A stretch of 40,103 nucleotides of DNA from Clostridia bacterium (GTDB taxonomy: Bacteria; Bacillota; Clostridia; Christensenellales; Aristaeellaceae): contig JAFRNK010000015.1 in NCBI GenBank assembly GCA_017430225.1, positions 1 through 40,103 of the forward strand, written 5' to 3'. Within the stretch, counting starts at the first letter, position 1. The number at the start of each line of letters is the position of its first letter. Under the pieces are notes generated by a model. The model was not told where the DNA came from and ran no database searches. It was given only the letters and a program-made list of their open reading frames with translations. Shown one piece after another: positions 1 through 21,337 of the stretch. The position numbers were made by a program, and so were the translations under genes.

Positions 1-673
1 AACGGTTTACCTCATAATACTTGTTATTGATGTAGTTGTTCTGCGGGTTCTCCTGAGCATCCACGGTGCCCATCTGCAGAGCAGTGAAAACTTCAGAGTT
101 GGCCAGAGGTACAGCGTTCATGCCCAGAGCAGCCATCATGTCGGCAAACACCTGGCTCTCAGCGATACGGATGGTCAGGCCTTCCAGGTCTTCCACCTTT
201 TCGATGGGCCGCTTGGAGTTGGACACGTTGCGCCAGCCGTTGTACCAGTAGCCCAGCAGCTTGATGCCGTGCGCTTCGCAGTCTTCTGCGAATACCTTGC
301 ACTCTTCGCTGTCCATCATGGCGAAGGCTTCCTCCGCGCTGGAAAACAGATAAGGCATATTCAGGGCGTCAAAAGAGGGAACGATGTTGGAAACGCTCAT
401 CGGGTTCTCGATGAAGATATCGATGCTGCCCAGCTGAGTGCCTTCAACAGCCTTCGCGCCGGCGGCCAGCTGATTGGCGCCATAGATATCCAGTTCCATC
501 TTTCCGCCGGAATATTCTTTCAGCAGCTCGCCAAATTTTTCAGCGCCCTTCTGATAGGGGTGAACCTGGGAACCGATGTGGTGTACGGTAAACGTGTAGG
601 TTTCCGCAGCCAGGGCAGAGACACAGCCCATCAGCATTACAGCGCACAGGATCATGGCAACGATTTTTTTCAT
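1..673 (-). CDS. dctP: TRAP transporter substrate-binding protein, DctP family (3' end outside window)
   Basis: Extracytoplasmic solute receptor of a tripartite ATP-independent periplasmic (TRAP) transporter, the class that takes up C4-dicarboxylates, uronates and other organic or sugar acids. The visible 224 residues open with a signal peptide (MKKIVAMILCAVMLMGC...ALAAE). LMGC could be a lipobox; ALA-AE would be an ordinary cleavage site. The body is typical of DctP: a GSQVHPYQKGAEKF start, NQLAAGAKAVEGTQLG, then GLTIRIAES, whose Arg normally binds the substrate carboxylate, and ALQMGTVDAQENP. The ATG follows GGGAGG with good spacing. The reading frame runs off the left edge, so the C-terminus and the membrane subunits, if linked, lie outside. 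The neighbouring dehydratase and VOC protein suggest a sugar-acid substrate (inference). Confidence 0.93.
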   Translation of the reverse strand, partial: MKKIVAMILCAVMLMGCVSALAAETYTFTVHHIGSQVHPYQKGAEKFGELLKEYSGGKMELDIYGANQLAAGAKAVEGTQLGSIDIFIENPMSVSNIVPSFDALNMPYLFSSAEEAFAMMDSEECKVFAEDCEAHGIKLLGYWYNGWRNVSNSKRPIEKVEDLEGLTIRIAESQVFADMMAALGMNAVPLANSEVFTALQMGTVDAQENPQNNYINNKYYEVNR

Positions 674-785
674 TTTTGATTTCCTCCCTTTACGTTTATC
701 ACTTTTGTTCATACTGACATCGTTCTGAACTGTACTTGCCGCAATGTTTGCGCTACACTGCAGCGGAAGGCCTTCTGTTGGCATG

Positions 786-814
786 ATCATATCTGAAAAG
801 CACCTTCATGTAAA
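786..814 (-). promoter_or_regulatory. Promoter for the TRAP receptor gene
   Basis: Read on the minus strand, TTTACA (814-809) and TATGAT (791-786) are separated by exactly 17 bp, about 115 nt upstream of the dctP start. The same -35/-10 pair and spacing recur before the esterase gene at 3703-3731. The rest of the 674-1011 gap holds only the VOC terminator and a leader; no gene was seen in it. Confidence 0.7.
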
Positions 815-929
815 CTATATCCTTCTGATGGAGCATAAAATGGATTTATGGTCTCCTCCTTCTCCGCTTTTTCCCTTATTCCTGCAGGAGATTCTGACTG
901 TACAGAAGCTGTTTCCCGGCAACCAGACG

Positions 930-962
930 AAAAAATGATGCCCCGCCGCATCGCAGCAGGGC
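930..962 (-). terminator. Rho-independent terminator of the VOC gene
   Basis: On the minus strand a 10-bp stem (GCCCTGCTGC with GCGGCGGGGC, two G-U pairs) with a GAT loop is followed by ATCATTTTTT. It lies 50 nt past the VOC stop, separating that gene from dctP. Confidence 0.85.
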
Positions 963-1011
963 AATCTGAATTCATAGGGCGGCAGCAATAAAAGAGGGAA
1001 AAACTGAAGGG

Positions 1012-1827
1012 TTATCTTCTCTTCGATGTGGTCAGGTGGAAAGCGAAACCGTTGATTTCATCGGTGAGGTACACCAGACGCATATGCCCGTCATTGGCAA
1101 ACTTGGCTGTACTGTAATTTACCTTATAGCCAGCCCGCTCCAGGTAATCCAGGGCGGCATGCATGTCTTCTACATAAATGCCGAAATGGCCATGCGTCCC
1201 GGGGGCAGTGCCCTTGTACAGTTCCAGGTAGAAATTGGCGACATAATTGGATACGCCGATGTCAGTAGTGTCGTGCATCTGAAGCACATTCTCGAAGAAA
1301 TCAATCAGGTTGGCGTTGTCCGGGTCTTCCTCTGTACCGTTAATGCCAAGATGATCAAAGAAGAAAGTCTGCTGATCCTTTTCGATCAGAGTGGGAAGGG
1401 AAGTGGTCAGATGGAAAGCCCAGCCGTTGATTTCCTCTTTCATGTAGATCAGGCGCATGGTCACTCCGTCATCCTTGAACTTGGCAGTGCTTTCGTCAAA
1501 GGAGTAGCCTTTCGATTCCAGATACGCCCGTGCGGCTGGAAGATCGTCCGTGTAAAGACCGATGTGCCCATGAGTGCCCGCACCAGCGGTTTTATACAGT
1601 TCGATGTTATCATCCGCCACATAATAAGACGGGGCGATTTCGCGGGTGTCGCCGAATTTCAGCACATTCTCAAAGAAATCCCGAAGCTGAGCCTGAGCTT
1701 CGGCATCCGGGCCGTTTACGCCCACATGAGAAAAGGCAAACAGAGGAGCTTTGACTTCTTCCGACATGGCGGTGCACGCGCCGGCGAGTAGCAGCGCAGC
1801 AATGCAGAATGCAAGCAATTTCTTCAT
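1012..1827 (-). CDS. Secreted protein with two tandem VOC (glyoxalase-fold) domains
   Basis: A 271-aa protein with an N-terminal signal peptide (hydrophobic residues about 4-20). Two homologous units follow, roughly residues 33-145 and 155-269. Each runs F(S/D)H(V/L)G(V/I)NG, DFFENVL, ELYK, GTHGH(I/F)G(L/I)Y, STAKF and a closing E-I-N-G-(W/F)-AFHLTTS. The conserved His and Glu/His positions fit the metal-site layout of the vicinal-oxygen-chelate superfamily. The pattern resembles the VOC domain fused behind KHG/KDPG aldolases in many gut Firmicutes (recalled from family knowledge, not searched). The ATG follows AAGGAG. Two VOC units usually make one active barrel, so this may be a complete enzyme or binding protein acting outside the membrane. 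The reaction is unknown; a link to 2-keto-3-deoxy sugar acids is inferred from the neighbours. Confidence 0.8.
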   Translation of the reverse strand: MKKLLAFCIAALLLAGACTAMSEEVKAPLFAFSHVGVNGPDAEAQAQLRDFFENVLKFGDTREIAPSYYVADDNIELYKTAGAGTHGHIGLYTDDLPAARAYLESKGYSFDESTAKFKDDGVTMRLIYMKEEINGWAFHLTTSLPTLIEKDQQTFFFDHLGINGTEEDPDNANLIDFFENVLQMHDTTDIGVSNYVANFYLELYKGTAPGTHGHFGIYVEDMHAALDYLERAGYKVNYSTAKFANDGHMRLVYLTDEINGFAFHLTTSKRR

Positions 1828-1897
1828 TTTTTGAATCTCCTTTTATCCGTTATTCATTCACACACTCCCCCTTCTTTGTGCCGCTGCCGTTGGTTTT

Positions 1898-1925
1898 ATT
1901 ATATTGCACTTTCCCGTTCTGACAA
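1898..1925 (-). promoter_or_regulatory. Promoter for the VOC gene
   Basis: On the minus strand TTGTCA (1925-1920), a 16-bp spacer and TATAAT (1903-1898) lie about 70 nt before the VOC start. With the plus-strand promoter at 2081-2108 it makes the 1828-2320 gap a divergent control region. No gene was seen in this gap. Confidence 0.7.
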
Positions 1926-2080
1926 GATTAAAACATCATGATACAGTATGACGTGACCTTATGCAGCGCCCCAAAGCAGGATCCGGTTTATCCCCGAAAG
2001 CTCATGCGGACTGAATACAGCATCAGGAATCCTGAAGCAGTGTGATTCACTTTTCCTTATGGAGCATTATTTATCTTGAG

Positions 2081-2108
2081 TTTACAAAAAACCCGCATAT
2101 GCTATAAT
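2081..2108 (+). promoter_or_regulatory. Promoter for the Tat-signal dehydratase gene
   Basis: TTTACA (2081-2086), a 16-bp spacer and TATAAT (2103-2108). Transcription from here would give a leader of about 205 nt before the start codon at 2321. Confidence 0.7.
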
Positions 2109-2138
2109 CCCAATCAAAGAGGGCCTTCAGGTACGATC

Positions 2139-2200
2139 GCAAACGGATGCGCAACCGTTTGCAGGCGATGAAAACCCAGGCTGTTCACCGGTTTTCATCG
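2139..2200 (+). promoter_or_regulatory. Structured leader: two perfect inverted repeats
   Basis: The first repeat is GCAAACGG (2139-2146) with CCGTTTGC (2155-2162) around an 8-nt loop. The second is CGATGAAAACC (2166-2176) with GGTTTTCATCG (2190-2200) around a 13-nt loop. The first also contains GCAACCGTTTGC, which looks like the CG-centred palindrome used by LacI-family regulators. So it could be a DNA operator just downstream of the promoter, an RNA hairpin pair, or both. Neither hairpin has a U-tract, so neither is a simple terminator. Confidence 0.6.
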
Positions 2201-2320
2201 GGAAGCAAGTCTACTCATCCTCTCCAGATGTGCAGGCTCACGCCAAACAGCCTTCATCAAAGTCAAGTCCGGACAATACAACACAGCAGCGGCACCGACT
2301 GCTGCGGAAAGGAAAACAAT

Positions 2321-3571
2321 ATGGATATCTCCCGTAGAGATCTCCTCAAAGGAGCTGGCGCGATCACTGCCGGTATAGCGGCGGCAAACCTGTTCGGATC
2401 CGCTTTCGCGGAAGAAACAAACACTGCAGGAGGAAAATACGGCATGAGCGGCATGAAGATCACAAAGATCACCCCGATTCCCTGCTATACTCGCTGGTGC
2501 CTGGTCAAGGTCGAGACGGATGCCGGCATTACCGGCTGGGGCGAGTGCGGCTGCTGGGCCTGGCAGACGGCTACCGCCGAGTGCGTCAAGATCCTCGGTT
2601 CTCTGCTGGAAGGCAAGGATCCCTTCCAGATCGAAAAATGGTGGAACGCCATGATCCGTACGCCCCATCAGCAGGGCGCTCTGCTGAACAGCGCGATCTC
2701 CGCGATCGATATCGCCCTGTGGGATATCAAGGGCAAGGCTCTGGGTGTGCCCATTTATGAACTGCTGGGCGGCGCTCATCGTGATAAGATCGACGCCTAT
2801 GAAACCCTCAAAGGCAACACCACCGAAGAAAAGGTCGCCGACGCGGTCCGCCTGGTCGCTGAAGGCTGGCGTCACCTGCGCATCCGTCCGGACAGCAACA
2901 ACGGCACGGATAACATGGCTCAGATCTGTTCAAAAAACGAGAATCTGTACGCCAAGCTGCGTGAAGCCATCGGCTACGAAATCGACATTTCCATCGAAAT
3001 GCACCGTCAGTGCAAGCCCGTACAGGCCATCGAACTGGGCAAGCGGCTGGATAAATACATGGTCCACTTCATTGAGGACCCGGTCCTTGACCACCCCGAG
3101 GAAGTCCGCTACGTTACCGAACGCTGCCCCGCCCCGATCGCGAACGGCGAGCGCGCCTTCAACATCTATCAGCTGGCTGACCTGTGCCGCAACACCAACG
3201 TCGCCTATCTGCGTCCCGACTTCTGCGTCATCGGCGGTATCACTGCCGGCATGAAGATCGCACACATCGCGGAGGGCTATGGCGTGGGTATCGTCCCGCA
3301 CAACCCGCTCGGACCGATCTCCACAATTGCCGCGCTGCACATCGACCGCGTTGCCCCGAACTTCGAGTGCCAGGAGTGGCCCGGCACCTTCGGCAACTTC
3401 AACGACATGATCAAGGGCGACACCATCAAGGTCGAAAACGGCTACATCATCATGCCCGAAGGCCCCGGTCTGGGCATCGATATCATTGACGATCTCGAGG
3501 AGAAATTCCCCTTCCAGGGCAACAAGCCTAGGTGGACCTTCTGCGAAGACGGCTCCGTACGCGATACCTGA
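2321..3571 (+). CDS. Enolase-superfamily sugar-acid dehydratase with a Tat signal peptide (DgoD/MR-MLE-like)
   Basis: 416 aa from the start at 2321, which follows GGAAAGG by 8 nt. An upstream in-frame ATG at 2147 lies inside the leader hairpin and has no ribosome site. Residues 1-32 are a twin-arginine signal (SRRDLLKG, a hydrophobic stretch, then AFA-EE). The rest is a mandelate racemase/muconate lactonizing-type enzyme: an N-terminal capping domain, ALWDIKGKALGVPIYELLGG, and a barrel with metal ligands E226 (IEMHRQ), E252 (FIEDPV) and E277 (NGER). H228 and H327 (PHNPLGP) stand where galactonate dehydratase has its acid/base histidines. Expected chemistry is dehydration of an aldonate or similar acid to a 2-keto-3-deoxy acid. 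Glu at the first metal position, where Asp is usual, and export of such an enzyme are both unusual. The substrate is not known. Confidence 0.88.
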   Translation: MDISRRDLLKGAGAITAGIAAANLFGSAFAEETNTAGGKYGMSGMKITKITPIPCYTRWCLVKVETDAGITGWGECGCWAWQTATAECVKILGSLLEGKDPFQIEKWWNAMIRTPHQQGALLNSAISAIDIALWDIKGKALGVPIYELLGGAHRDKIDAYETLKGNTTEEKVADAVRLVAEGWRHLRIRPDSNNGTDNMAQICSKNENLYAKLREAIGYEIDISIEMHRQCKPVQAIELGKRLDKYMVHFIEDPVLDHPEEVRYVTERCPAPIANGERAFNIYQLADLCRNTNVAYLRPDFCVIGGITAGMKIAHIAEGYGVGIVPHNPLGPISTIAALHIDRVAPNFECQEWPGTFGNFNDMIKGDTIKVENGYIIMPEGPGLGIDIIDDLEEKFPFQGNKPRWTFCEDGSVRDT

Positions 3572-3598
3572 TATCCCTTATTCCCCTTTCTATACATT

Positions 3599-3637
3599 GG
3601 CAGCCAGGCGACCAAAACCGCCTGGCTGTCTCTTTTT
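3599..3637 (+). terminator. Rho-independent terminator after the dehydratase gene
   Basis: CAGCCAGGCG (3601-3610) pairs with CGCCTGGCTG (3619-3628) around an 8-nt loop, extendable by one or two pairs, followed by TCTCTTTTT. Confidence 0.92.
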
Positions 3638-3702
3638 CCGGTCTTTAGGGATAACAAAAACATATGCATCGCATTCCGTGATGCTCTATAAAGAAAAACA
3701 AA

Positions 3703-3731
3703 TTTACAAATCTTTTTATTCTGTCTATGAT
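3703..3731 (+). promoter_or_regulatory. Promoter for the esterase gene
   Basis: TTTACA (3703-3708), a 17-bp spacer and TATGAT (3726-3731), about 90 nt before the start codon. The hexamers and spacing are identical to the dctP promoter at 786-814. Confidence 0.72.
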
Positions 3732-3821
3732 GATATTGACTGAACTGTGCGCACGGTTCTTCTTGAAAACTCACCGGGGTGTGCCGGTACAAAATGGTTT
3801 TGGTTACTGGAGGATTGTATC

Positions 3822-5117
3822 ATGAAAAAACTGATCATATTTTTACTGGCAGCAGTATTGCTTTGCGGTGCCTTCGCAAGCGCCGAAGAATTCACCGTAC
3901 AGCCCAATCCCCCCAAGGGGATCAACTACTCATACAAATATGCCACGCTCATTTTCAAAGCAGGAGAATCCATGTCATGGATGGACAAATACATCCACAT
4001 GATGGCTGCTCCCGCAGAGGCAGCTGATGGGGATGTATATGTGCTGCTGGACGAATTGAAAGCCATGTATGCCCCTGATTTCACTGTAGAGGAAGCAGCG
4101 GATCAGCTGACCCTGAATCACTTCGGACTGACCGTAACTCTGAATCCTGACAGTGCCGACGCTGTGATCGATGGCCATGCTTATACCTTCAAAAATGCTC
4201 CCAAAACCGTGGACGGCAAAGTGATGGTGCCTGCCATGGAACTGTGCAGCGTAGGCTTCGGGACCCCAGCGAAAGAGTTGGGCAATGGATTCTATGCCGT
4301 ATCCTATTCCACCGCCGAGATCACCGGTCGGTTCGATACCAACCTGTACAACGGCATGATACGCGGCAAGAACGTGGGCTTTGTCTATCTTACCTACACA
4401 ATTCCTGATGATCCGGACCAAAAAATCCTGCCCCTGCGGTTGTACGTGCCCAGCAACTACGACCCCGAAAAACCCATGCGGGCGATTGTGCTGCTTCACG
4501 GCAATTCTGTCAGCATGAACTACTTCTATCCCGATACCCAGGAAGCCATCAAACAGTATCGCGGTATTGAGACCTTCGCCGAAGAATACGGTTACATTCT
4601 TATCTCCGGCACTGCCTATCTGGTAGGCGGCGGATACGGCGATGTGGACGGCATGCCCTTCCAGGATCAGACAGAGTGGCGCAATCTCTCTGAATATGAT
4701 AAAGAACTGCGTATGCGCTCTGAAAAGAGTGTTCTGAGTCTGATGGAACTGGCCTTTGAGCGGTATAACGTTGATATGGATCATCTGTACCTGATGGGCA
4801 ACTCAATGGGCGGTGTTGGTACGCTGTTCCTCGGCAATAAACATGCTGACATGTTTGACGCGATTGTGCCTTGCGCCATCATGCCGAATTTCTCCCTGAT
4901 TGACGGCAATCCTTTCCCCAACCTGGTGGATAAGCCCATCCTGTGCTGCGTCGGCACCGAAGACAGCTACGGCTATGACCTGTATCTGGCCAATTACAAG
5001 ATTCTGGAGAGCTATGTGAACGATATCCGGTTCTATGCCGCTGCGGGCGGCGTACATAACACTGGCTGGTGCATTTCCCTGCCTGTCATCTTTGATTTCC
5101 TGAACGCGCAGTACTGA
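3822..5117 (+). CDS. Secreted alpha/beta-hydrolase (esterase-like) with an N-terminal stalk domain
   Basis: 431 aa from the ATG at 3822, which follows GGAGG by 8 nt. An in-frame ATG at 3747 has no ribosome site and would bury the signal peptide. Residues 1-21 are a signal peptide (MKKLIIFLLAAVLLCGAFASA-EE). Residues ~25-180 resemble the copper-amine-oxidase-N-like beta domains common on Clostridia surface proteins (VDGKVMVPAMELCS). The C-terminal half is an alpha/beta-hydrolase of the polyhydroxybutyrate depolymerase/feruloyl-esterase type: oxyanion-hole motif VLLHGNS, nucleophile elbow GNSMGG with Ser328, an Asp around the GTEDSYGYD segment and catalytic His412 (GVHNTGW). It probably removes ester groups from polysaccharide or other extracellular substrates. 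Own promoter and terminator; substrate unknown. Confidence 0.85.
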   Translation: MKKLIIFLLAAVLLCGAFASAEEFTVQPNPPKGINYSYKYATLIFKAGESMSWMDKYIHMMAAPAEAADGDVYVLLDELKAMYAPDFTVEEAADQLTLNHFGLTVTLNPDSADAVIDGHAYTFKNAPKTVDGKVMVPAMELCSVGFGTPAKELGNGFYAVSYSTAEITGRFDTNLYNGMIRGKNVGFVYLTYTIPDDPDQKILPLRLYVPSNYDPEKPMRAIVLLHGNSVSMNYFYPDTQEAIKQYRGIETFAEEYGYILISGTAYLVGGGYGDVDGMPFQDQTEWRNLSEYDKELRMRSEKSVLSLMELAFERYNVDMDHLYLMGNSMGGVGTLFLGNKHADMFDAIVPCAIMPNFSLIDGNPFPNLVDKPILCCVGTEDSYGYDLYLANYKILESYVNDIRFYAAAGGVHNTGWCISLPVIFDFLNAQY

Positions 5118-5274: not shown

Positions 5275-7569
5275 TTACGGCCCTTCCTTTTCTTTCTGAG
5301 CGCGGTACACGCCCGGCGTGACGCCGCGGTATTTTTTAAATGCCCTGGTCATTGTGATTTCGCTGGTATACCCCGCGTGCTCCGCGACGACCTTCATAGG
5401 AGACTGCGTGGTCCTGATCTCCACTTCCGCAGCTTCCAGCCGCAGTCCGTGCAGTACCTCCAGGAACCCTTTGCCCAGATATTTCTGAAAATCACGGGAC
5501 AGGCTGGCGATTGGACGATGGAAAAGATCCGAAAGGCTGGTAAGGGAAAGATTGGGGTCTCTGAAATGAAGACGTATGTACTCGAGAACGGCGTTGAATT
5601 CCTCGGAGGAGGATTCCGTACCTGCGGCAGTCTTCCCGCTCTCCAGTTCATCAAATATCTCTTTCCAGAATTCCAGCACGCTGTTCAGGGTATAATCCTG
5701 CATCCGTTCTGACATACCGGAAAAAAGAGCGTCCAGCCGGCTCCGGTGATCGGGATCGGATTCCATCAGCATCCGGAAGGTCCTGAGAGATATGGACTGC
5801 ACCTGGCTTTTGATCATGGCGTCGCTTTGCTCGCTCTGAAAGATCAGCCGGACGATTTCTTCAAGGCAGTCATACGCTTTGGCATAGTTCTCGACATAAA
5901 CCAGGCTGATCAGGCGATTTTCCAGCTGCAGCATATGCTGCGTACTGACATGTTCCTGCAATACGGGCTCCCTGTCCGCGGAAAGGGTAAAATCGGCGCG
6001 GTACAGGACCTCGTCATACGCGTTATGAAGCGCTCCGGGGCCGCTGTATATTTTGCTGAACCGGAATATATACGTCGCCTTTTCCTGTCGGTTCAGGCGA
6101 ACAAGCGTATCCATCAGCATGTTGCGCAGCAGCGCTAGTCCCTCTTCGTCCACCCGAAAGAGAACGAAGGTCTTGCGATCATGCCGCAGACAAATCGGAG
6201 AAAAATTGGCGTATTCGTTTTCAATTTCGCTTTCTGCGTCCAAGAGAGCCAGATTACGGTGATAGACCCTTTCCGAATGGCTCATTTTTTCTGGGTCCCA
6301 CAGCTCATTGGACGCCTTGACGCTCATCAGGACAAAACTGCGAAGCCGCTCATCCAGATGGAAATAGGCAATTTCATCCTCGGACCCGGCATAGGACGAA
6401 TCCAGCATCATTTTGAGCAGAACAGAACGAAACAGGGCGTCGTTTTGCTCCTCAATGGTCACCCTGCTCAGATCGGCCTGACGACGGTAGTATTCAATCG
6501 CGGAAGAGATCTGGTCCAAGGGATCGTTCGTCCGTTTTTCCGTCTCCATGACGGACGGCACCGAAACTGTTTTTGCAAGGGAACTGATAGGGCCGTAAAG
6601 CAGGCGCAGTACGACAGCGGCTATGATGAGTATGGCCAGTGTAACGAATACCATGCAGATCATCAGCATTTGTATCAGATTCCCGTTCATCGGCCCTTTT
6701 TGAATCTCTATCAGCGAGTAAACAAGGGTAAAACCTCCGTTCCGCTCCTGGATCTTCATGAGGGTCCTGTCTCCGTCGATAAAAATGTCCTCTTCCCGCA
6801 GAAGCAGCTTCCTGAGCTCCGATGACGACAGATCATCCTCTCCGTCCGCTGAGGAGAGCAGGAACTGGCCGTCCGGCAGCACCAGATGTGTGGAAAGATA
6901 TTGATAAGACGGGCCTATGTTCGCTGAAAAAACCGTGTTTTCCAGCTGCTGCGGCTGAAAGCCGTAGATCATAACCGTTCCGCTTCCCTCATGGACAGTG
7001 GTAAACAGCAGAATATCTTCATCCACGGATTCCAGCCGGCAGATATGAAAGGAGCCGGCACGCACAAAATCCTGTTCCGTCACCTGTCCGGACAAATGGA
7101 TCGTCTGGTACAGATTGGCAAAATCAAATGCCATAAAGCCGTCCGGATCATCCATCGACGCGCCAAGATAACAACCGGATGCGGGCGAATAGCGGATCGA
7201 TACGGCGTAGTCCGTTCCTTCCCCTATGATGTTTTTATGCCATTTCATCAGGGACGGGATCCAGTCCTCATGCATCTCCGCCTCCAGCGTTTCCCTGCTC
7301 GCCTCAGAGAAATGGGGAGTCAGATATAACGAAGCTGAAAGCATCTGGTTTTGAATTTCCGTATGATTCAAAACGAATTCAAATTCCTTCAGCATGGATT
7401 CGATCCGGGCATAATTTCCCGACATGTGACGTTCTTTCTCGTCCGCCGTTTCCCGGTTCAGCCTGACCAGGATCACGGTAACGACAGCGCACAGGATCAG
7501 AACGGCTAAAACAAAACATACGAACAGTCTTTTTTGGATCGATATTTTCCTGCTCTGTGGTTTTTTCAT
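5275..7569 (-). CDS. Membrane-bound sensor fused to an AraC-type DNA-binding domain
   Basis: 764 aa; ATG preceded by GGAGTG. Transmembrane helix 1 spans about residues 13-36. An extracytoplasmic sensing region of ~250 residues follows (Cache-like in layout), then transmembrane helix 2 at about 295-320 and a cytoplasmic linker. Residues ~655-760 are two AraC helix-turn-helix motifs (LTSLSDLFHRPIASLSRDFQKYLGKG, then VAEHAGYTSEITMTRAFKKYRGVTPGVYR). One-piece regulators of this build sit beside carbohydrate transport loci in Clostridia and sense an external ligand directly. No kinase or receiver domain was seen. Its place between the TRAP/dehydratase/esterase cluster and the LysR gene makes that cluster the likely target (inference). 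Confidence 0.9.
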   Translation of the reverse strand: MKKPQSRKISIQKRLFVCFVLAVLILCAVVTVILVRLNRETADEKERHMSGNYARIESMLKEFEFVLNHTEIQNQMLSASLYLTPHFSEASRETLEAEMHEDWIPSLMKWHKNIIGEGTDYAVSIRYSPASGCYLGASMDDPDGFMAFDFANLYQTIHLSGQVTEQDFVRAGSFHICRLESVDEDILLFTTVHEGSGTVMIYGFQPQQLENTVFSANIGPSYQYLSTHLVLPDGQFLLSSADGEDDLSSSELRKLLLREEDIFIDGDRTLMKIQERNGGFTLVYSLIEIQKGPMNGNLIQMLMICMVFVTLAILIIAAVVLRLLYGPISSLAKTVSVPSVMETEKRTNDPLDQISSAIEYYRRQADLSRVTIEEQNDALFRSVLLKMMLDSSYAGSEDEIAYFHLDERLRSFVLMSVKASNELWDPEKMSHSERVYHRNLALLDAESEIENEYANFSPICLRHDRKTFVLFRVDEEGLALLRNMLMDTLVRLNRQEKATYIFRFSKIYSGPGALHNAYDEVLYRADFTLSADREPVLQEHVSTQHMLQLENRLISLVYVENYAKAYDCLEEIVRLIFQSEQSDAMIKSQVQSISLRTFRMLMESDPDHRSRLDALFSGMSERMQDYTLNSVLEFWKEIFDELESGKTAAGTESSSEEFNAVLEYIRLHFRDPNLSLTSLSDLFHRPIASLSRDFQKYLGKGFLEVLHGLRLEAAEVEIRTTQSPMKVVAEHAGYTSEITMTRAFKKYRGVTPGVYRAQKEKEGP

Positions 7570-13986: not shown

Positions 13987-15318
13987 TTACTGAACAGTAA
14001 AGTCCGCGATGGAATGCGGCTGAAGTAGCAAGCCGGCTTCCTGGTCCCTCAAGCGGACGCAAATCGGTTTCGGTTCGGCAGAACGGTTAATCAGCACGCC
14101 CGCCAGGGTACCGTCAGGCTGTTTCCAGGCAGTGACTTCGATCTCTTCGGCGTAACGGGTAGCAGCAATACGAACAGAGCCGGGCTGCACGGCATGCGCG
14201 AAGTGCTCAAAGAACTGGGAAATCAGGTGCGGCATCAGTTTCTTTTTCCGGGTATCATACAGGAATGGCGCAAGGCAGTAATTGTCCACATAGTTGGGGC
14301 CGCCCTGTTCATCCACCAGCAGATTCCAGTCGATGAAGGCGGAAATGCCATGGTTCAGATCACCCATCAGTTCATGGCTGATGTGAAGGGCAGCGCTACA
14401 GGCGTCGTTCGGATCGAACTTGCTGTATTCGATGCAGCTTTCCGATACGATCAGTTTTTTATCCGGAAACTGGGTACGGCACAGATCCAGCGAGTCGAAA
14501 TGATCGCCCGAATACCAGTGGAAGGCCGCACCGGCTATTAGGTCACTTGTTTCTTCGTCAATGATATCGCGCATCCATTCCCAGACGCGTTCCTTGTTGT
14601 GGTCCCACAGATAGATCTGAATATTGCTGAGGCCATGCTTTTCCAGAGCGGGACGCATCACATCCTTGAGGAAATGCTTTTCTTCCTGAGCGGTGAACAC
14701 GCATGAATCCCAGGTCTGCACAGCTTTGGGCTCGTTTTGCAGTGTCATGCCCACTACCTGATATCCGTGATTCCGATATTCCTGGATATAGCGGCACAGA
14801 TATTCCGCCCACAGCGCTTCATATTCCGGCTTCAGCTTGCCGCCGTGATCCCGTTTGCCGTTGGTTTTCATATAGGCAGGCGGTGACCATGGCGTAAGGA
14901 TCAGCTTCAGTTTCCGGCCTGCCGCTTTTTCAGCGTCGTCCAGCATGGGCCACAGGTTCTGTTTTACCCGCTCCAGGGAGAAGTCGCTGAAATCCGGCTT
15001 TGAAGAGGCTTCGTACTGAGAGAGGGAGAAATCGCAGCTGTCGATGGGGAGGCGGATGTACTGATAGTTCATCCGCTCTTTCCCAAAGTAGGCATACATC
15101 AGTGCTTGCTTCTGGGCTTCGTTCATCTGGTTGTAGGTGGATCCGGCAGCTTCTGTGATCGCGCCGCCAAAGCCGTCAAAGGTTTGGTAAGTGATCTCCG
15201 GATACAGGTTGATCACGCGATTCTCTGTGACACCCGTACGGAACAGTACCGTCTGGCGGAACTGCTGATCAAACCCACCGCTGCCATAGGTAATGGAAAG
15301 CTTCAATGCAGTATTCAT
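13987..15318 (-). CDS. GH30-family glycosidase, cytoplasmic
   Basis: 443 aa, no signal peptide. The N-terminus carries the FDGFGGAITEAAGSTYNQM motif typical of GH30, followed by YQYIRLPIDSCDFS and LTPWSPPAYMK. The acid/base is E196 (TLQNEPKA) and the nucleophile E293 (VSESCIEY). The last ~60 residues are the beta-sandwich that GH30 enzymes carry. GH30 members act on beta-1,6-glucan, glucosyl or xylosyl linkages; the substrate cannot be settled by eye. Its ATG shares one base with the GPH symporter stop, so it is the last, translationally coupled gene of the operon and would split what the symporter brings in. Confidence 0.93.
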   Translation of the reverse strand: MNTALKLSITYGSGGFDQQFRQTVLFRTGVTENRVINLYPEITYQTFDGFGGAITEAAGSTYNQMNEAQKQALMYAYFGKERMNYQYIRLPIDSCDFSLSQYEASSKPDFSDFSLERVKQNLWPMLDDAEKAAGRKLKLILTPWSPPAYMKTNGKRDHGGKLKPEYEALWAEYLCRYIQEYRNHGYQVVGMTLQNEPKAVQTWDSCVFTAQEEKHFLKDVMRPALEKHGLSNIQIYLWDHNKERVWEWMRDIIDEETSDLIAGAAFHWYSGDHFDSLDLCRTQFPDKKLIVSESCIEYSKFDPNDACSAALHISHELMGDLNHGISAFIDWNLLVDEQGGPNYVDNYCLAPFLYDTRKKKLMPHLISQFFEHFAHAVQPGSVRIAATRYAEEIEVTAWKQPDGTLAGVLINRSAEPKPICVRLRDQEAGLLLQPHSIADFTVQ

Positions 15319-16799
15319 CAGGCATTTCCCTTCTTTCTGTCAGCGATAAGCTGCTGTTCTTCCCTGATGTGCTTTTCCACGTTCAGGAACATCAGCACCA
15401 CAATCAGGATGCCGTGGGCAAAGATTTCGAAACCCAGGAAGAAGAAACTGGACACCTGCTGGTGACTGAACATCCCTCCATCATAAAAGAGATTGAAGAA
15501 GGCGACTGCCAGTCCGTTGACGACTGTCAGGATTGTTGAGTATACGCTCATGGAGATGCCGTCAATCCTGAAGCCGTTTCTGGCTTCCAGATGATCCAGC
15601 ACGTCCGCGAACAGCGCCATCATGATGTATGCGCCGGGAATGGAGGAGAACCCTTTCAGAACCTGGCCGATGGTGACAATAATGAAGTTGGAAGGCGCCA
15701 GCAGGCACACGATGCTGCCGAGAATGGAGACCACGCACCCCAGCATCACGAAGTTCCGTTTTCCGATCTTGTTAGCCACCGGCCAGGCAAACAGCATGCC
15801 CGCCGCCAGCGGGATACCGCCGATCAGCGCCATCAGGGACTGGACACCCTCTGCGTTCATGGTCCGCCCGAACAGGGTAACAGAGGGGAAGAAATCGTTG
15901 CAGAAGATGTTGAACACATAGCCGCCCTTGAACATGACCCCCGCCTGATACAGGAAATAGAAGATCATGATGATCCACCAGTATTTGTCGGACGCGGCGG
16001 CTTTCAGCTGTTTCCCTGTGGAAATGGTTTCACCTTTTTGTTCCGGCGCGGCTTCGTCGATATCCTCCTCGGTGATTCGCTCGCGGGTGAACAGGTATTC
16101 CAGCAGGCAGCCCACAAAGGCAGCGATAGCGAAAATCAGCATGACAGTTTGCCAGCGGTTCTGCACGATTTGCTGGCCCAAACCCATTTCCAGGCCCAAG
16201 GCTTCGCCGGACTTGATCCAGCCCAGAATGGCCGGCATCAGAATGCTGGACACCAGCCCGTTTCCTGCGACAGCAGGGATATTGGCGACCACAGACAGCT
16301 TCCCGCGCTGGTCCAGGTCACGGGTGGACAGGGACACCATCAGGTAGTGCGAGTTGGAATAGATGGGGTTGGCCAAAGCGGCAAACAGGTTATAGGTGAT
16401 CGCCATCCAGGCCATGCGGAAGCCCATGGAGAAATAGGGAATAATGAACATCACGATGCCGGAGATCAGCAGCAACGGCCCGGCCGTGAGAATAAAAGGC
16501 CGCGCTTTCCCCTGCCGGGTTTTCGTTTTTCCCAGCACGATGCCCACGATGATGTTGGACAGCGCCATGGGAATAATAGAGATCAGCGGCAGCAGCACCA
16601 GGAACTTGCCCGAAGCCACGATGTCGTCATAAGTGCGATAAAAGGTGAGATAATAGGTCGAGACCACGCTGGTCATGGCCAGCACCAGCAAGGGCCCCAG
16701 GAAGTAGCCGAAGATCATTTCCGGCAAGGTCACTTTTTGTTTATTGGTCCTGGAATTGAGGACAGGAAGATTCCAGAAACTCTTTGAGGCGGAGGTCAT
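15318..16799 (-). CDS. GPH-family sugar:cation symporter (MelB-like MFS)
   Basis: 493 aa from the ATG at 16799, which overlaps the GH5 stop as ATGA and follows AGGAGG; an in-frame start at 16847 inside the GH5 gene is less likely. Twelve transmembrane segments can be followed (MIFGYFLGPLLVLAMTSVVS, FLVLLPLISIIPMALSNIIVG, ... IFAHGILIVVLMFL). Glycoside-pentoside-hexuronide features are the cytoplasmic loop GKTKTRQGKARPFIL after helix 2 and the middle-loop PEQKGETISTGKQLK. It imports glycosides or short oligosaccharides with Na+ or H+. Its place between GH5 and GH30 suggests import of a beta-glucoside. Coupled on both sides. Confidence 0.93.
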   Translation of the reverse strand: MTSASKSFWNLPVLNSRTNKQKVTLPEMIFGYFLGPLLVLAMTSVVSTYYLTFYRTYDDIVASGKFLVLLPLISIIPMALSNIIVGIVLGKTKTRQGKARPFILTAGPLLLISGIVMFIIPYFSMGFRMAWMAITYNLFAALANPIYSNSHYLMVSLSTRDLDQRGKLSVVANIPAVAGNGLVSSILMPAILGWIKSGEALGLEMGLGQQIVQNRWQTVMLIFAIAAFVGCLLEYLFTRERITEEDIDEAAPEQKGETISTGKQLKAAASDKYWWIIMIFYFLYQAGVMFKGGYVFNIFCNDFFPSVTLFGRTMNAEGVQSLMALIGGIPLAAGMLFAWPVANKIGKRNFVMLGCVVSILGSIVCLLAPSNFIIVTIGQVLKGFSSIPGAYIMMALFADVLDHLEARNGFRIDGISMSVYSTILTVVNGLAVAFFNLFYDGGMFSHQQVSSFFFLGFEIFAHGILIVVLMFLNVEKHIREEQQLIADRKKGNA

Positions 16800-17935
16800 T
16801 GCGCGAAATCCTCCTTCGCAAGCCATCCGTTTTTCAGGCACCGACACAAATCCCAGCTTTCCTTCCAGCTCTCGTCGGTCGGCGTCACGCGGTCACGCAG
16901 CAGCTGGTAGTTCCAGTAGAACCAGCCGGCCGTTTCCTTCCAGGCATCCAGTTCCATTTTGGCGATCTGCCGGTACTTGCCTTTTTGTTTCTCAGCCCGG
17001 TCATTCTGAGACATGACCGACTGGTCCATCTTGTTGGCGTATTTATTGCAGATGCACCATTCGCCCACGATCACAGGGATATCCTTCTGCGCTTTGCGCA
17101 CCTGTGACATACAGGCATTCAGATAGATTTTGTACACCCAGGGCTTGGCAATGGGTACGAAGTTTTCCATGGCGAAGATATAGATATGCGTATCCAGCGC
17201 TACATTCCTGAATCCCGCCTCCCGGAAGAACTTGTTCCAGGCCGTGCAGCGGAAACCGTCGTGGAACACGATGGTCTTATCCTCCGGCAGGTATTTGCGG
17301 ATACGCCGGTATGCCCTGGTGTAGAAATCCCGCAGGAAAGGCAGCGGCACGTAGCCGGAGCCCTTGGCTTCTTCCTTGTCCACCGCTTTGCCGGTAGAGG
17401 GAGCGGTGATGTATACGATCCAGCTGATGGGCTCGTTGAGCACTTCGATGCCATACAGGCCGGGACGCTGCCCATAACGCTGCGCCAGCCGCTCCAGTAC
17501 AGTCAGGGCAAACTCCACTTCGTCCGGAAACTTGCGCCATTTGCATACACCGGTAATCCCACCGTTGTCATAACCGTTCTGGCTGTGCGGTACGGTATGA
17601 AGATCCAGGAGTACCTTCAGGCCATACTTTTCTGCCCAGTCCAGCGCCAGATCAACATATTCGATGCAGCCGACAAAGGGCGGACGGTCGCCGAACACAA
17701 AGTACGGTACCGGGAGGCGAACCGTATCCAGTCCGCTCTCCGCGATAAATCGGAAATCCTCTTCGGTAACATAGGTGTTGCGGTGCTCTGTCAGGCGGCG
17801 GACAAATTCATCTGCCGGCTGCTTACGGGAGAGCCAGGTTTCGTCTTCTGTGCCGGTATCAGCGAAGAGACCGGGGCTCATCCATTTTTCCAGCACTAAC
17901 CAATTTCCGAGGTTGGTTCCGTGGATCTGCTTCAT
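16796..17935 (-). CDS. GH5-family glycosidase (exo-beta-1,3-glucanase-like), cytoplasmic
   Basis: 379 aa, no signal peptide; ATG preceded by AGGAGG. It starts HGTNLGNWLVLEKWMSP, the signature of GH5 exo-1,3-beta-glucanase-type enzymes, and continues VRLPVPYFVFGD and LKVLLDLHTVPHSQNGYDN. The acid/base is E168 (VLNEP) and the nucleophile E292 (VIVGEWC). WFYWNYQL near the end forms the last barrel strand. The likely role is removal of glucose from beta-1,3- or mixed-linkage oligosaccharides inside the cell. It lies 12 nt after the repeat-protein gene and overlaps the symporter gene by 4 nt. Confidence 0.93.
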   Translation of the reverse strand: MKQIHGTNLGNWLVLEKWMSPGLFADTGTEDETWLSRKQPADEFVRRLTEHRNTYVTEEDFRFIAESGLDTVRLPVPYFVFGDRPPFVGCIEYVDLALDWAEKYGLKVLLDLHTVPHSQNGYDNGGITGVCKWRKFPDEVEFALTVLERLAQRYGQRPGLYGIEVLNEPISWIVYITAPSTGKAVDKEEAKGSGYVPLPFLRDFYTRAYRRIRKYLPEDKTIVFHDGFRCTAWNKFFREAGFRNVALDTHIYIFAMENFVPIAKPWVYKIYLNACMSQVRKAQKDIPVIVGEWCICNKYANKMDQSVMSQNDRAEKQKGKYRQIAKMELDAWKETAGWFYWNYQLLRDRVTPTDESWKESWDLCRCLKNGWLAKEDFAQ

Positions 17936-17947
17936 AGTGGCCTCCTG

Positions 17948-19162
17948 TTATTTCGCAAATGTATCACTGGGGATGGTGTAATCGCCAGTCAGCTGGTCGC
18001 TGTCGGAATAGGCGTAGTGCAGTTTGATGGGATTGCCTTCGCCAACGGACTGCTTGCCGTTCTTGTCTGTCAGGGTCAGCACGTCGTCTGCATAGGTCCA
18101 GGTCCCCAGGTCCTCAATGGAGTAGCCGGCGAACCAGAACCGATAGGTTCCGTCCGGGTTGAAGGTCATCTCCGTGCCGCCGTCATCGGAGGGGATGACG
18201 GCAGGCTCGGCCAGCAGCGTAGCGGAAGCTTCTTCGGCAGCAAGCGTCTCTTCCACGGCGTTCGCAGCCGGAGCGGCGAAGGTGCATGCCGGGATGGTGT
18301 AATCGCCGGTCAGCTGGTCGCTGTCGGAATAGGCGTAGTGCAGCTTGATCGGGTCGCCCTCGCCGATGGACTGCTTGCCGTTCTTGTCAGTCAGGGTCAG
18401 CACGCTGTCTGCATAGGTCCAGGTGCCCAGATCTTCAATGGAGTATCCGGCGAACCAGAACCGATAGGATCCGTCCGGGTTGAAGGTCATCTCCGTACCG
18501 CCGTCATCGGAGGGGATGACGGCAGGTTCGGACAGGAGAGCAGCGGGAACTTCTTCGGCAGCAGGCGTCTCTTCCACAACAGCTGCAGCCGGAGCGGTAA
18601 AGGTGGATGCCGGGATGGTATAATCGCCGGTCAGCTGATCACTGTCGGAATAGGTGTAGTGCAGCTTGATCGGATCACCTTCGCCGACGGATTGTTTGCC
18701 GTTCTTGTCCGTCAGGGTCAGGACGCCGTTTTCAAATGTATAGGTTCCAAGGTCTTCGATTGAGTAGGCAGAAAACCAGAACCGATAGGATCCGTCCGGG
18801 TTGAAGGTCATTTCCGTGCCACCGTCATCGGAGGGGATGACGGCAGGCGCAGACAGCAGCGCGGTAGGGGCTTCTTCCGCAGCAGACGTCTCTTCCACAG
18901 CGGCAGCACCCGGTGCGGCAAAGGTGGATGCCGGGATGGTATAATCGCCGGTCAGCTGGTCACTGTCTGAATAGGTGTAGTGCAGTTTGATGGGGTCGCC
19001 TTCGCCCACAGACTGCTTGCCGTTCTTGTCGGTCAGGGTCAGGACGCCGTTCTCATAGTTCCAAGTGCCCTGATCAGCGATGCCGTAGGCGGCGAATTCG
19101 AAGGTATAGGTACCGTCAGCAGACAGCGTCATGGACGTAGCGCCGTCATCGGAGGGAATCAC
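17948..19162 (-). repeat. B-type tandem coding repeats (four units, 321-bp period)
   Basis: Unit starts fall at an exact 321-bp spacing (around 19162, 18841, 18520 and 18199). Units 2-4 are close to identical; unit 1 (GATSMTLSADGTYTFEF) is the most different. The last is cut short by the stop. Confidence 0.92.
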
Positions 19163-21337
19163 AGCAAAGGGAGCGGCAGAGGCCGGTTCATTTGATGCCT
19201 CAGCGGGCTGTTCAGATACTTCTTCTGCCTCTTCTTTTACGACGACCTGGTATCCGGCGATGGCAGCGCCTTTCAGGGTCCACACGGTTTCAGGAATTCT
19301 GTCCAGCACAGCGGGATGCTCAGCAGAGTCATAGGTGCCGTCCGCAGCTTCCGCATCGCCGATCTGATACTTGGCAGGGCTGCGCATCTGGCTGGAATAG
19401 GTGTCCAACTCAAGGGTGAACATCGCGTGATCAGCGGCAGCAGTGGTGACGGTGCCGTCTTCATTGACAGTGTACGTGCCCTCCGCTTTCATGGTGGAGA
19501 CCATACCCAGGCCGGTATCATCGCCGATCACAGCACGTTTGCCGGCTTCAATGCAGTAGGCGTCGCTGGTCAGAGCATAAGTATTATCAGGGTTCAGGGT
19601 CAGTTTCAGTGCCAGAGTCAGGCGGGTATCCACATTCATCAGGCCGTCCAGCTTGCCGCACTGGAACTGATCGCCCTGCAGGATATCCAGGTTTCCTTCG
19701 GCACCGGAGAGGACGACACTGTAAGTGCCCACAACGTTGGTATCCTTCTTGTAACCAGTGATCTTGCCGTCAGCGATGGTCCAGACGGTGGCGGGCACGT
19801 CATCCAGCACGGCAGGATAGTTGGCGGAATCATAAGTACCGTCTGCCGCTTCCGTATCGCCGATCTGATACTTGGCGGGACTGCGCATCTGGCTGGAATA
19901 GGTATCCAGTTCCAGGGTGAAGACCGCGTGGGTCGGAACAGAGGTGGAGACGGTGCCGTCTTCGTTGACGGTATAGGTGCCTTCCGCTTTCATCACGGAA
20001 ACCATGCCCAGGCCGGTATCGTCGCCGATGACGGCACGCTTGCCGGCTTCGACGCAGTAGGCGTCGCTGGTCAAAGCATAGGTATTGTCGGGATTCAGAA
20101 TCAGTTCCAACGCCAGGGTCAGGCGGGTATCGTACTTCAGCAGCCCACTCAGGTCTGCGCACTGAAGCTGATAATCTGGCATGATATCCAGATTGCCTTC
20201 TGCGCCGGAGAGGACGACGCTGTAGGTACCCACAACGTTGGTATCCTTTTTGTAGCCGGTGATCTTGCCGTCAGCAATACTCCAGACGGTGGCGGGCACG
20301 TCGTCCAGCACGGCGGGGTAGTCAGCAGAATCATAGGTGCCGTCTGCCGCTTCCGTGTCACCGATCTGGTACTTGGCGGGACTGCGCATCTGGCTGGAAT
20401 AAGTGTCCAGTTCCAGAGTGAAGACCGCATGGTCAGGCTTGGAGGTCGTGACGGATCCGTCTTCGTTGACAGTATAGGTGCCCTCCGCCTTCATGGTGGA
20501 GACCATGCCCAGACCGGTGTCGTCGCCGATCACAGCGCGCTTGCCGGCTTCGACGCAGTAAGCATCGCTGGTCAACGCATAGGTGTTGTCAGGTTTCAGA
20601 GCCAATTCCAATGCCAGGGTCAGGCGGGTGTCATATTTCAGGAGGCCGCTGAGGTCAGCACACTGGAGCTGATAATCGGGCATGATGTCCAGATTGCCTT
20701 CCGCTCCGGAAATAATGACCTTGTAATTCCCGGCGATGCCCGCAGCAGCTGTGTTGGCTGCGCCAGTACCGGTATTCGCCGCTCCGGGAGCATTCTTGGC
20801 AGTAAAAACGCCGCCCAGGATCAGAGAAGGTACCAGGATAGCCACCAGCGCGATAGCACCGGCGCTCAGGATGCCGGCCTTTTTACCGCGGGTCAGCTTC
20901 GCTTCTTCCGGTTCTTTGCCGAAGGAACCGATGATGTTGAAGACCATGGCGGCCAGGGCCGCGAGCACGCTGCCCAGAGAGAAGTAAATGGCCTCCTCAC
21001 CGCCGTGGCCGGAGTCGTAGTCGGTCAGGATGCAGATGCCGATACCTTCCACGCGATCACCCAGCAGGGTCAGCGCGCCGAAAGCCAGCGCCGCGGTCAC
21101 CAGATAGGTCAGCAGTTTGGGCCACAAAGCCTTGGGAAACTTTTTGAGGCAGAGGATCGCGCAGCACTCGATCAATAATGCACCGCCGAAGCAGATGGTC
21201 ACGATCACGGAGTTCATCTGACCATAGGTATAGTAGCCTGTGGAAAAACCAAGTCCGAACAGGACCAGTGCCAGCACAGTCAGCGCGATGACCGCAAAGC
21301 CGGCAGTGATCTCTCTGGTAGTCTGCTTGTTCTTCAT
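17948..21337 (-). CDS. Large membrane-anchored repeat protein (three A repeats, four B repeats), function unknown
   Basis: 1129 aa, not recognised; ATG preceded by AGGAGGGC. About five transmembrane segments lie at residues ~10-31, 42-63, 76-95, 115-140 and 154-175, which would put the rest outside. Three A repeats of 167 residues start at 203, 370 and 537. Each reads VVLSGAEGNLDI, LTLALEL-LNPDNTYALTSDAYC, AGKRAVIGDDTGLGMVS, AEGTYTVNEDG, LDTYSSQMRSPAKYQIGD, and each has two cysteines. An acidic linker rich in Glu/Ala/Pro leads to four B repeats of 107 residues from 726, each VIPSDDGGTEMTFNPDGSYRFWF, LTLTDKNGKQS, YSDSDQLTGDYTIP. B units look like small beta-barrels. Between the anchored GH3 and GH5 genes, a glycan-binding or scaffold role is plausible (inference). 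Confidence 0.85.
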   Translation of the reverse strand: MKNKQTTREITAGFAVIALTVLALVLFGLGFSTGYYTYGQMNSVIVTICFGGALLIECCAILCLKKFPKALWPKLLTYLVTAALAFGALTLLGDRVEGIGICILTDYDSGHGGEEAIYFSLGSVLAALAAMVFNIIGSFGKEPEEAKLTRGKKAGILSAGAIALVAILVPSLILGGVFTAKNAPGAANTGTGAANTAAAGIAGNYKVIISGAEGNLDIMPDYQLQCADLSGLLKYDTRLTLALELALKPDNTYALTSDAYCVEAGKRAVIGDDTGLGMVSTMKAEGTYTVNEDGSVTTSKPDHAVFTLELDTYSSQMRSPAKYQIGDTEAADGTYDSADYPAVLDDVPATVWSIADGKITGYKKDTNVVGTYSVVLSGAEGNLDIMPDYQLQCADLSGLLKYDTRLTLALELILNPDNTYALTSDAYCVEAGKRAVIGDDTGLGMVSVMKAEGTYTVNEDGTVSTSVPTHAVFTLELDTYSSQMRSPAKYQIGDTEAADGTYDSANYPAVLDDVPATVWTIADGKITGYKKDTNVVGTYSVVLSGAEGNLDILQGDQFQCGKLDGLMNVDTRLTLALKLTLNPDNTYALTSDAYCIEAGKRAVIGDDTGLGMVSTMKAEGTYTVNEDGTVTTAAADHAMFTLELDTYSSQMRSPAKYQIGDAEAADGTYDSAEHPAVLDRIPETVWTLKGAAIAGYQVVVKEEAEEVSEQPAEASNEPASAAPFAVIPSDDGATSMTLSADGTYTFEFAAYGIADQGTWNYENGVLTLTDKNGKQSVGEGDPIKLHYTYSDSDQLTGDYTIPASTFAAPGAAAVEETSAAEEAPTALLSAPAVIPSDDGGTEMTFNPDGSYRFWFSAYSIEDLGTYTFENGVLTLTDKNGKQSVGEGDPIKLHYTYSDSDQLTGDYTIPASTFTAPAAAVVEETPAAEEVPAALLSEPAVIPSDDGGTEMTFNPDGSYRFWFAGYSIEDLGTWTYADSVLTLTDKNGKQSIGEGDPIKLHYAYSDSDQLTGDYTIPACTFAAPAANAVEETLAAEEASATLLAEPAVIPSDDGGTEMTFNPDGTYRFWFAGYSIEDLGTWTYADDVLTLTDKNGKQSVGEGNPIKLHYAYSDSDQLTGDYTIPSDTFAK
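19240..20731 (-). repeat. A-type tandem coding repeats (three units, 501-bp period)
   Basis: Units start at 20731, 20230 and 19729. Units 1 and 2 differ at few residues; unit 3 diverges at its start (LQGDQFQCGKLDGLMNVD) and end. Such similarity suggests recent duplication or ongoing gene conversion, and may collapse in short-read assemblies. Confidence 0.92.

Follow-up and report, generated by a model that had tools for sequence, protein, structure and literature searches.

Enzymes of the sugar-acid dehydratase type usually work inside the cell. The closest described layout is the L-gulonate pathway of Haemophilus influenzae, in which a tripartite ATP-independent periplasmic (TRAP) transporter, GulPQM, accompanies UxuA and UxuB, enzymes that are treated there as intracellular and acting after uptake (PMC5788505). 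Here we describe a gene set at one end of contig JAFRNK010000015.1 of a Clostridia bacterium (contig C2 of assembly G000; 2.65 Mb in 131 contigs, 82% complete); the window analysed is the entire contig of 40103 bases. The two systems have in common DctPQM genes beside an acid-sugar dehydratase and Entner-Doudoroff-type enzymes in the genome, whereas here, unlike UxuA, the dehydratase belongs to the enolase superfamily and bears a leader for twin-arginine translocation (Tat). The enzyme appears to be exported through Tat and to act outside the membrane beside a matching importer, and we read the block as a variation on TRAP-linked sugar-acid catabolism. To the fuller proposal, in which the locus would serve the regulated uptake of an aldonate- or uronate-type sugar acid that would be dehydrated outside and imported as its product by TRAP, we give about even chances. 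No exported sugar-acid dehydratase is named in the titles or abstract openings listed by a full-text literature search, which mostly leaves out subscription papers and is no proof of absence; the same search returned no paper pairing mandelate racemase with a Tat signal, or KDPG aldolase with glyoxalase and VOC.

From the left contig end the genes are dctP (minus strand), a tandem VOC gene (minus), the dehydratase (plus), an esterase (plus) and a membrane AraC regulator (minus), with the following features:

2..673, minus strand: DctP, TRAP solute receptor (PF03480, 195 bits), its 3´ part cut off by the contig end; 224 residues from the likely start (the list of open reading frames, ORFs, places the start at 790)
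786..836, minus strand: dctP promoter-like site TTTACA-17-TATGAT; its -35 element and motif ATGCTCCAT (836-828) are 13 nucleotides (nt) apart
1012..1827, minus strand: secreted tandem VOC protein, related to the VOC portion of KDPG aldolases (Pfam, homologues)
1898..1949, minus strand: VOC promoter-like site TTGTCA-16-TATAAT; its -35 element and a weaker form of the motif, ATACTGTAT (1949-1941), are 15 nt apart
2059..2108, plus strand: dehydratase promoter-like site TTTACA-16-TATAAT; its -35 element and motif ATGGAGCAT (2059-2067) are 13 nt apart
2321..3571, plus strand: Tat-leader enolase-superfamily (GalD-like) dehydratase of 416 residues (Pfam, curated models, 3rr1 alignment)
2321..2410, plus strand: Tat leader MDISRRDLLKG...GSAFA|EE (PF10518, 23.0 bits), cleavage site inferred
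2428..2446, plus strand: internal AGGAGG, 10 nt 5´ of an in-frame ATG (codon 42), a possible leaderless second start
3599..3630, plus strand: terminator-like hairpin 3´ of the dehydratase, 12 bp stem and T tract
3681..3731, plus strand: esterase promoter-like site TTTACA-17-TATGAT; its -35 element and motif ATGCTCTAT (3681-3689) are 13 nt apart
3822..5117, plus strand: secreted esterase with an N-terminal copper-amine-oxidase-N1 domain (PF00756 and PF07833; signal peptide by eye)
5275..7569, minus strand: membrane-anchored AraC-type regulator (HTH_18, 53.3 bits)

DctP, the VOC protein and the esterase carry Sec-type leaders by eye. A first-pass annotation of this DNA had named these five products and placed them all within 1..5117. 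Pfam matches and leaders bear out the set itself; the four exported products lie inside that interval and the regulator, at 5275-7569, outside it.

The dehydratase begins with MDISRRDLLKGAGAITAGIAAANLFGSAFAEE, a Tat-type leader that narrowly exceeds the Pfam cut-off for TAT_signal (PF10518, 23.0 against 22.7 bits). Orthologs with 65% identity occur in a genome of the same family (G031) and in a contig (L016) of Clostridia bacterium isolate S36M_St_15_sub (genome G423). The three enzymes are 64-73% identical to one another, and in all three species they carry a Tat-type leader with the pattern RR-x-[FL]-[LI]-K-G and an A-x-A site, so that, as far as the leader tells, the dehydratase would not be confined to the cytoplasm, in keeping with what the first-pass annotation supposed. 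The Tat pathway is available in the assembly that contains the window, since TatC is found there (208 bits against a cut-off of 25.1; the TatC search covered this assembly) together with two TatA/B-type genes at one locus, a TatA and a TatB-like gene; TatA/B-type matches are present in all three genomes. Adjoining the tatC of this assembly (L077:6326-7402, contig C70) is a second protein with a Tat-type motif by eye, MNRRDFLRTAGKAALGAVA.

In both relatives the genes follow in the order AraC-type membrane regulator, Tat dehydratase, DctP, DctQ, DctM and a small TatA, the TRAP proteins being assigned by Pfam in G031 and by homology in L016. The tatA gene lies 26 nt (G031) or 102 nt (L016) downstream of dctM, its product scores 59.6 and 56.4 bits, respectively, with PF02416 (cut-off 21), and it is extra to two TatA/B-type genes elsewhere in each genome. 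The Tat dehydratase is thus found near dctP in three of three species, and dctPQM with tatA in both loci that are not cut by a contig end. The window DctP is 75% identical to those of G031 and L016 over 224 residues and 79-81% over the last 185, and the DctM proteins of the two relatives are 93% identical. The pairing of dehydratase and DctP, recurring in two further species, is more than chance. By analogy with the two relatives, a TatA gene may belong to the window locus as well. Substrate-linked TatA genes are known from Bacillus subtilis, in phoD-tatAd-tatCd. Campylobacter jejuni likewise has an extra TatA tied to particular substrates, TatA1 and TatA2 reportedly differing in substrate dependence (PMC4148689). 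Here TatA closes a TRAP block, and no TatC is seen beside it.

The module is rare. In the order-level sample 2 of 396 genomes match the dehydratase (E 1e-100) and in the family-level sample 3 of 308 (E 1e-80), own genome included in each count; the third family match, G660, is probably the same assembly as the G423 of L016, with the same contig number and position. Among 60 relatives (E 1e-60) seven match, again counting the own genome, and those besides G031 are 35-39% identical; none of the seven same-genus genomes matches at this threshold. Class and phylum samples give 2 of 391 and 2 of 398, own genome included, with one 42% identical homologue each, leaderless by ORF starts. Pattern scans returned the ortholog L016 and two distant matches (L017, L018) from genome contigs, 55 plasmid records, all below 60% identity, and no dehydratase relatives from viral contigs. 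Because the module is so patchily distributed, transfer is suggested.

Pfam places the dehydratase among the MR/MLE-type enzymes of the enolase superfamily (MR_MLE_C 161.5 bits, MR_MLE_N 69.6 bits, both above cut-off). Its top curated match is the galactonate dehydratase equivalog NF010624, and as the score of 276 bits falls short of the cut-off of 311 it is GalD-like and not a proven GalD; the orthologs score 300 (G031) and 284 (L016), also below 311. The nearest solved sequence is 3rr1, a putative D-galactonate dehydratase, with whose metal and catalytic positions, presumably in the roles general to the family, E226, H228, E252, E277, D300, H327 and E352 align. Compared with D-galactonate dehydratase (DgoD/GalD) the enzyme has the same fold domains and active-site positions, but it differs in its score below the cut-off, in E-[MI]-H-R-Q for D-F-H-G-R, in its Tat leader, and in the Glu at position 226 where 3rr1 has Asp as the first metal ligand. 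Loss of catalysis through this Glu was considered and rejected: two leaderless relatives of 42% identity (L078, L079) and 2gl5, deposited as a putative dehydratase, share it, and for that reason it is no argument against activity. An exported enzyme with another reaction, acting on an acid sugar as an epimerase, racemase or cycloisomerase, would suit a superfamily as catalytically diverse as this one, along with the missed cut-offs of all listed NCBIfam models, of which galactonate dehydratase comes best, and the Glu itself. We consider it improbable, given that the best profile is still that of galactonate dehydratase, that the GalD His pair is kept, and that 2gl5 has Glu at the same metal site.

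The leader is followed in all three genes by a second candidate start. The leader ends read GCAGGAGGAAAATACGGC-ATG in the window, CAAGGAGGAAGTGCC-ATG in G031 and CAAGGAGGCAGCGAT-ATG in L016, with a strong internal Shine-Dalgarno sequence 10, 7 and 7 nt, respectively, 5´ of an in-frame ATG; the same internal site is present in L015 and L016. This ATG is the point where leaderless relatives start (MKI). In the six leaderless relatives whose starts were read (L004, L006, L007, L008, L078, L079), AGGAGG stands 7-10 nt before the start in L006 and L007 and 13 nt away in L079; in L078 the sequence is a shorter GGGGAGG, and AGGAGG is missing from L004 and L008.

The codons that make up the internal site are rare in these genes: GGA accounts for 10-12% of Gly codons, CAA for 18% (G031) and 6.5% (L016) of Gln codons, and GCA for 10% of Ala codons (window). 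At Gly positions common to G031 and L016, a GGA of G031 is kept in L016 in 2 of 17 cases, one of them the internal site, and at common Gln positions a CAA is kept in 1 of 4, which is the internal site. Among sampled genes of the three genomes, AGGAGG lies 4-12 nt upstream of 4 of 426 internal ATGs, namely the three dehydratase sites and one window gene with a probably misplaced start. Across 245 ORFs of the own assembly the ratio is 14 of 2341. Leaving out the dehydratase, 13 cases remain: 3 are located well inside their ORFs, and 10 are no further in than codon 60, where many probably mark the real start of an ORF that was called too long.

Since Shine-Dalgarno sequence and ATG are kept in all three species, one gene may yield both an exported and a cytosolic dehydratase. 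The favoured explanation is that a leader was placed before a complete gene and that the old start was kept as a still working one; that the site is a slowly fading leftover is less favoured. Bacterial proteoform pairs from two in-frame starts of one gene, with and without a targeting signal, may, as reported, differ in location (PMC11005335); those pairs rest on ribosome profiling, while the second start here is a sequence-based prediction and the targeting signal a Tat-type one. We regard the dual start as the most interesting addition to the picture drawn by the first-pass annotation. A more speculative and rather improbable extension is that tagged and leaderless forms would co-assemble in the cytosol and that leaderless subunits would leave through Tat with the tagged ones, aided by the operon TatA, to give a mixed oligomer beside TRAP outside and a share of the enzyme inside; if true, sugar-acid dehydration would be split across the membrane.

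The same site lends itself to a cytosolic order of events, in which TRAP imports the intact acid, the internal-start dehydratase works in the cytosol and the exported form is of minor importance or a remnant of a leader fusion. Besides the strong AGGAGG exactly where leaderless relatives start, this agrees with the TRAP-then-intracellular-enzymes layout described for the L-gulonate pathway (PMC5788505), and with abhydrolase or ABC-importer genes adjoining the leaderless L078 and L079 (by eye). A decaying leader should, however, lose its RR motif, hydrophobic stretch and A-x-A site, all of which are kept in three of three species at 64-73% identity, and TatA stands in the same block at both uncut loci. 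We therefore hold this order unlikely, though it is the strongest competitor of the exported scheme. A leaderless E-x-H dehydratase adjoining an abhydrolase-like gene (by eye) is also found at L083:7133-9613 (G751), an echo of the dehydratase-esterase pair in the window.

The membership of the VOC protein and the esterase is argued chiefly from shared upstream sequences. A sigma-70-like site lies upstream of each of the four genes for exported proteins, and the motif ATGCTCYAT or its reverse complement stands exactly 13 nt before the -35 element of dctP, the dehydratase and the esterase, the VOC gene having the weaker form ATACTGTAT at 15 nt. A motif search on the first three upstream regions, run at widths 9, 11, 13 and 16, gave scores that were reached in 0, 0, 1 and 0 of 100 shuffles; when the VOC region was added, the counts were 6, 0, 0 and 1 of 100. 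Motif, 13-nt spacing and -35 element occur three times in 40 kb against 0.10 expected, and motif with full promoter four times, each at one of the four exported genes, where 200 shuffles give 0.005-0.015 on average, figures that are descriptive because the pattern was built from the very sites on which it was tested. Elsewhere in the assembly, a sample of 333 kb that includes 2.8 kb of N has two instances of the 13-nt layout and a single one of the full layout, in AT-rich sequence. This layout is the best evidence that the VOC protein and the esterase belong to the set in this genome. The protein binding the motif is inferred to be the nearby AraC-type regulator, which in the window is one gene away from the dehydratase, beyond the esterase; in G031 and L016 alike, the gene immediately upstream of the dehydratase encodes an AraC-type regulator 25-28% identical to it. 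No motif is seen by eye before the dehydratase genes of these two, where no formal test was made. An inverted repeat, GCAAACGGATGC/GCAACCGTTTGC (92%), is present at 2139-2162 in the long leader between dehydratase promoter and start, possibly an operator or a hairpin.

The VOC protein belongs to the VOC superfamily (PF13669, 29.0 bits, cut-off 27; PF00903, 28.3 bits, cut-off 20.6). Each half has one set of putative ligands, H34/E76/H88/H139 and H159/E202/H214/H264, which we take to act as they do in the VOC family at large, and the H, E, H, H positions are kept in 25 of 25 aligned rows. Homologues were found in 29 of 60 relatives (E 1e-5, own included). A script reading the 29 loci (L044-L072; 28 from relatives, 1 from the own assembly) found a KDPG-aldolase-type ORF at 23, and PF01081 is present in all three fused proteins scanned (L053, L044 and the own copy). 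The earlier remark that the protein resembles the partner domain of KDPG aldolases is thus right, resting on an aldolase-type ORF at most homologue loci and on the shared ligands. Set against the KDPG aldolase-VOC fusions of related bacteria, with which it shares the four putative ligands at 28-43% identity, the window protein is secreted, has two VOC domains in tandem and lacks the aldolase domain, PF01081 being absent from it in a Pfam scan. Comparison with solved structures gave no useful match (best E-value 0.075). As to function, it is a guess that the protein opens or interconverts rings of a keto-deoxy acid.

In G031 and G423 the single VOC homologue of each genome is a frame of 328 and 331 residues, respectively, with an aldolase-type N-terminus. 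As these matches are aldolase-fused only, the secreted VOC protein is no fixed part of the module. The first-pass annotation had proposed looking for the whole neighbourhood in related genomes: the dehydratase-TRAP pair recurs in two further species, while a VOC gene is absent from the G031 and L016 blocks, as is, by eye, an esterase of this kind, for which no search was made. These blocks, and the want of a stand-alone VOC homologue in either genome, would also suit a reading in which the VOC protein and the esterase are chance neighbours with other tasks and only dehydratase and TRAP are linked. It has little probability in our view, as the motif-promoter layout is common to all four window genes and rare in the sampled rest of the assembly.

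Several observations weigh against the proposed module. The G031 leader remains below the PF10518 cut-off (19.0 against 22.7), and for the L016 leader no Pfam TAT_signal is listed, its TIGR01409 score being above cut-off (19.2 against 16.7). In the own assembly, which is 82% complete, no DctM closer than about 40% was found (DctQ was not searched), and no second TatA locus or block-type TatA; the absence of a cognate DctM and TatA fits a missing contig, which is no proof of one. The closest solved relatives of DctP, 4p47 and 4x8r, indicate no single ligand; two Arg and one Asn align with 4x8r, residues taken for general TRAP ones, and DctP has ENP for ENN. Hexuronate-binding residues are described for STM3169 (PMC7660916), and comparison settles no DctP ligand. 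Promoter-like sites alone prove little, since nine are found in the region against 4.4 expected, and the motif pattern was derived from its own test sites. A stand-alone VOC homologue is missing from both G031 and G423. The conserved internal ribosome site, finally, implies a leaderless cytosolic form and weakens a purely extracellular scheme. On balance the earlier interpretation, extracytoplasmic dehydration of a sugar acid with capture of the product by TRAP, is partly supported. It is strengthened as to export and TRAP link, for which the predicted Tat leader in all three species, the TRAP neighbourhood, the shared motif and the GalD-type residues speak, and it loses ground to the internal ribosome site in its purely extracellular form.

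A cytosolic branch for keto-deoxy acids is present, because contig C59 of the own assembly (L074:5640-9923) has three such genes side by side: a tagaturonate-reductase-type (uxaB-like) gene (567 bits, cut-off 359), an altronate/galactarate-dehydratase-type (uxaA/garD-like) gene, which scores 332 bits with PF20629 but stays under the cut-off of the galactarate equivalog, and a KDPG aldolase-VOC gene. A diderm cell as the means of holding an exported enzyme was considered and rejected: Omp85 has no match in any of the three genomes, which makes a true periplasm unlikely. Elsewhere in the window, a transporter-like ORF at 15318-16847 probably has its true start at the ATG of codon 17, behind an AGGAGG, and a 1129-residue membrane protein of several similar repeats (17948-21337) adjoins a GH3-like protein (by eye).

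The proposed module would operate as follows. To judge by its membrane anchor and by how it recurs close to the dehydratase, the AraC sensor would respond to the acid or a related sugar and would probably switch on dctP(QM), the VOC gene, the dehydratase and the esterase through the shared motif. The dehydratase would fold in the cytosol and then be exported by Tat; in two relatives the block includes an extra TatA gene. Outside, the esterase may release the acid from an ester, the dehydratase would, from its active-site residues, convert the acid to a 2-keto-3-deoxy acid, and a form of that product may be the target of the secreted VOC protein. TRAP would import the 2-keto-3-deoxy acid, and the product would enter the cytosolic uronate/Entner-Doudoroff branch. 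The internal start probably gives a cytosolic dehydratase too, which could treat acid imported unchanged.

If this is true, bacteria without an outer membrane can start to degrade sugar acids by an Entner-Doudoroff-type route before taking them up, and a TRAP receptor whose neighbour is an exported dehydratase deserves testing on dehydrated keto-deoxy acids, and not on the parent acids alone. The internal ribosome site would then offer a clean case, open to testing, in which a single gene serves the two sides of the membrane and TatA is encoded beside its cargo.

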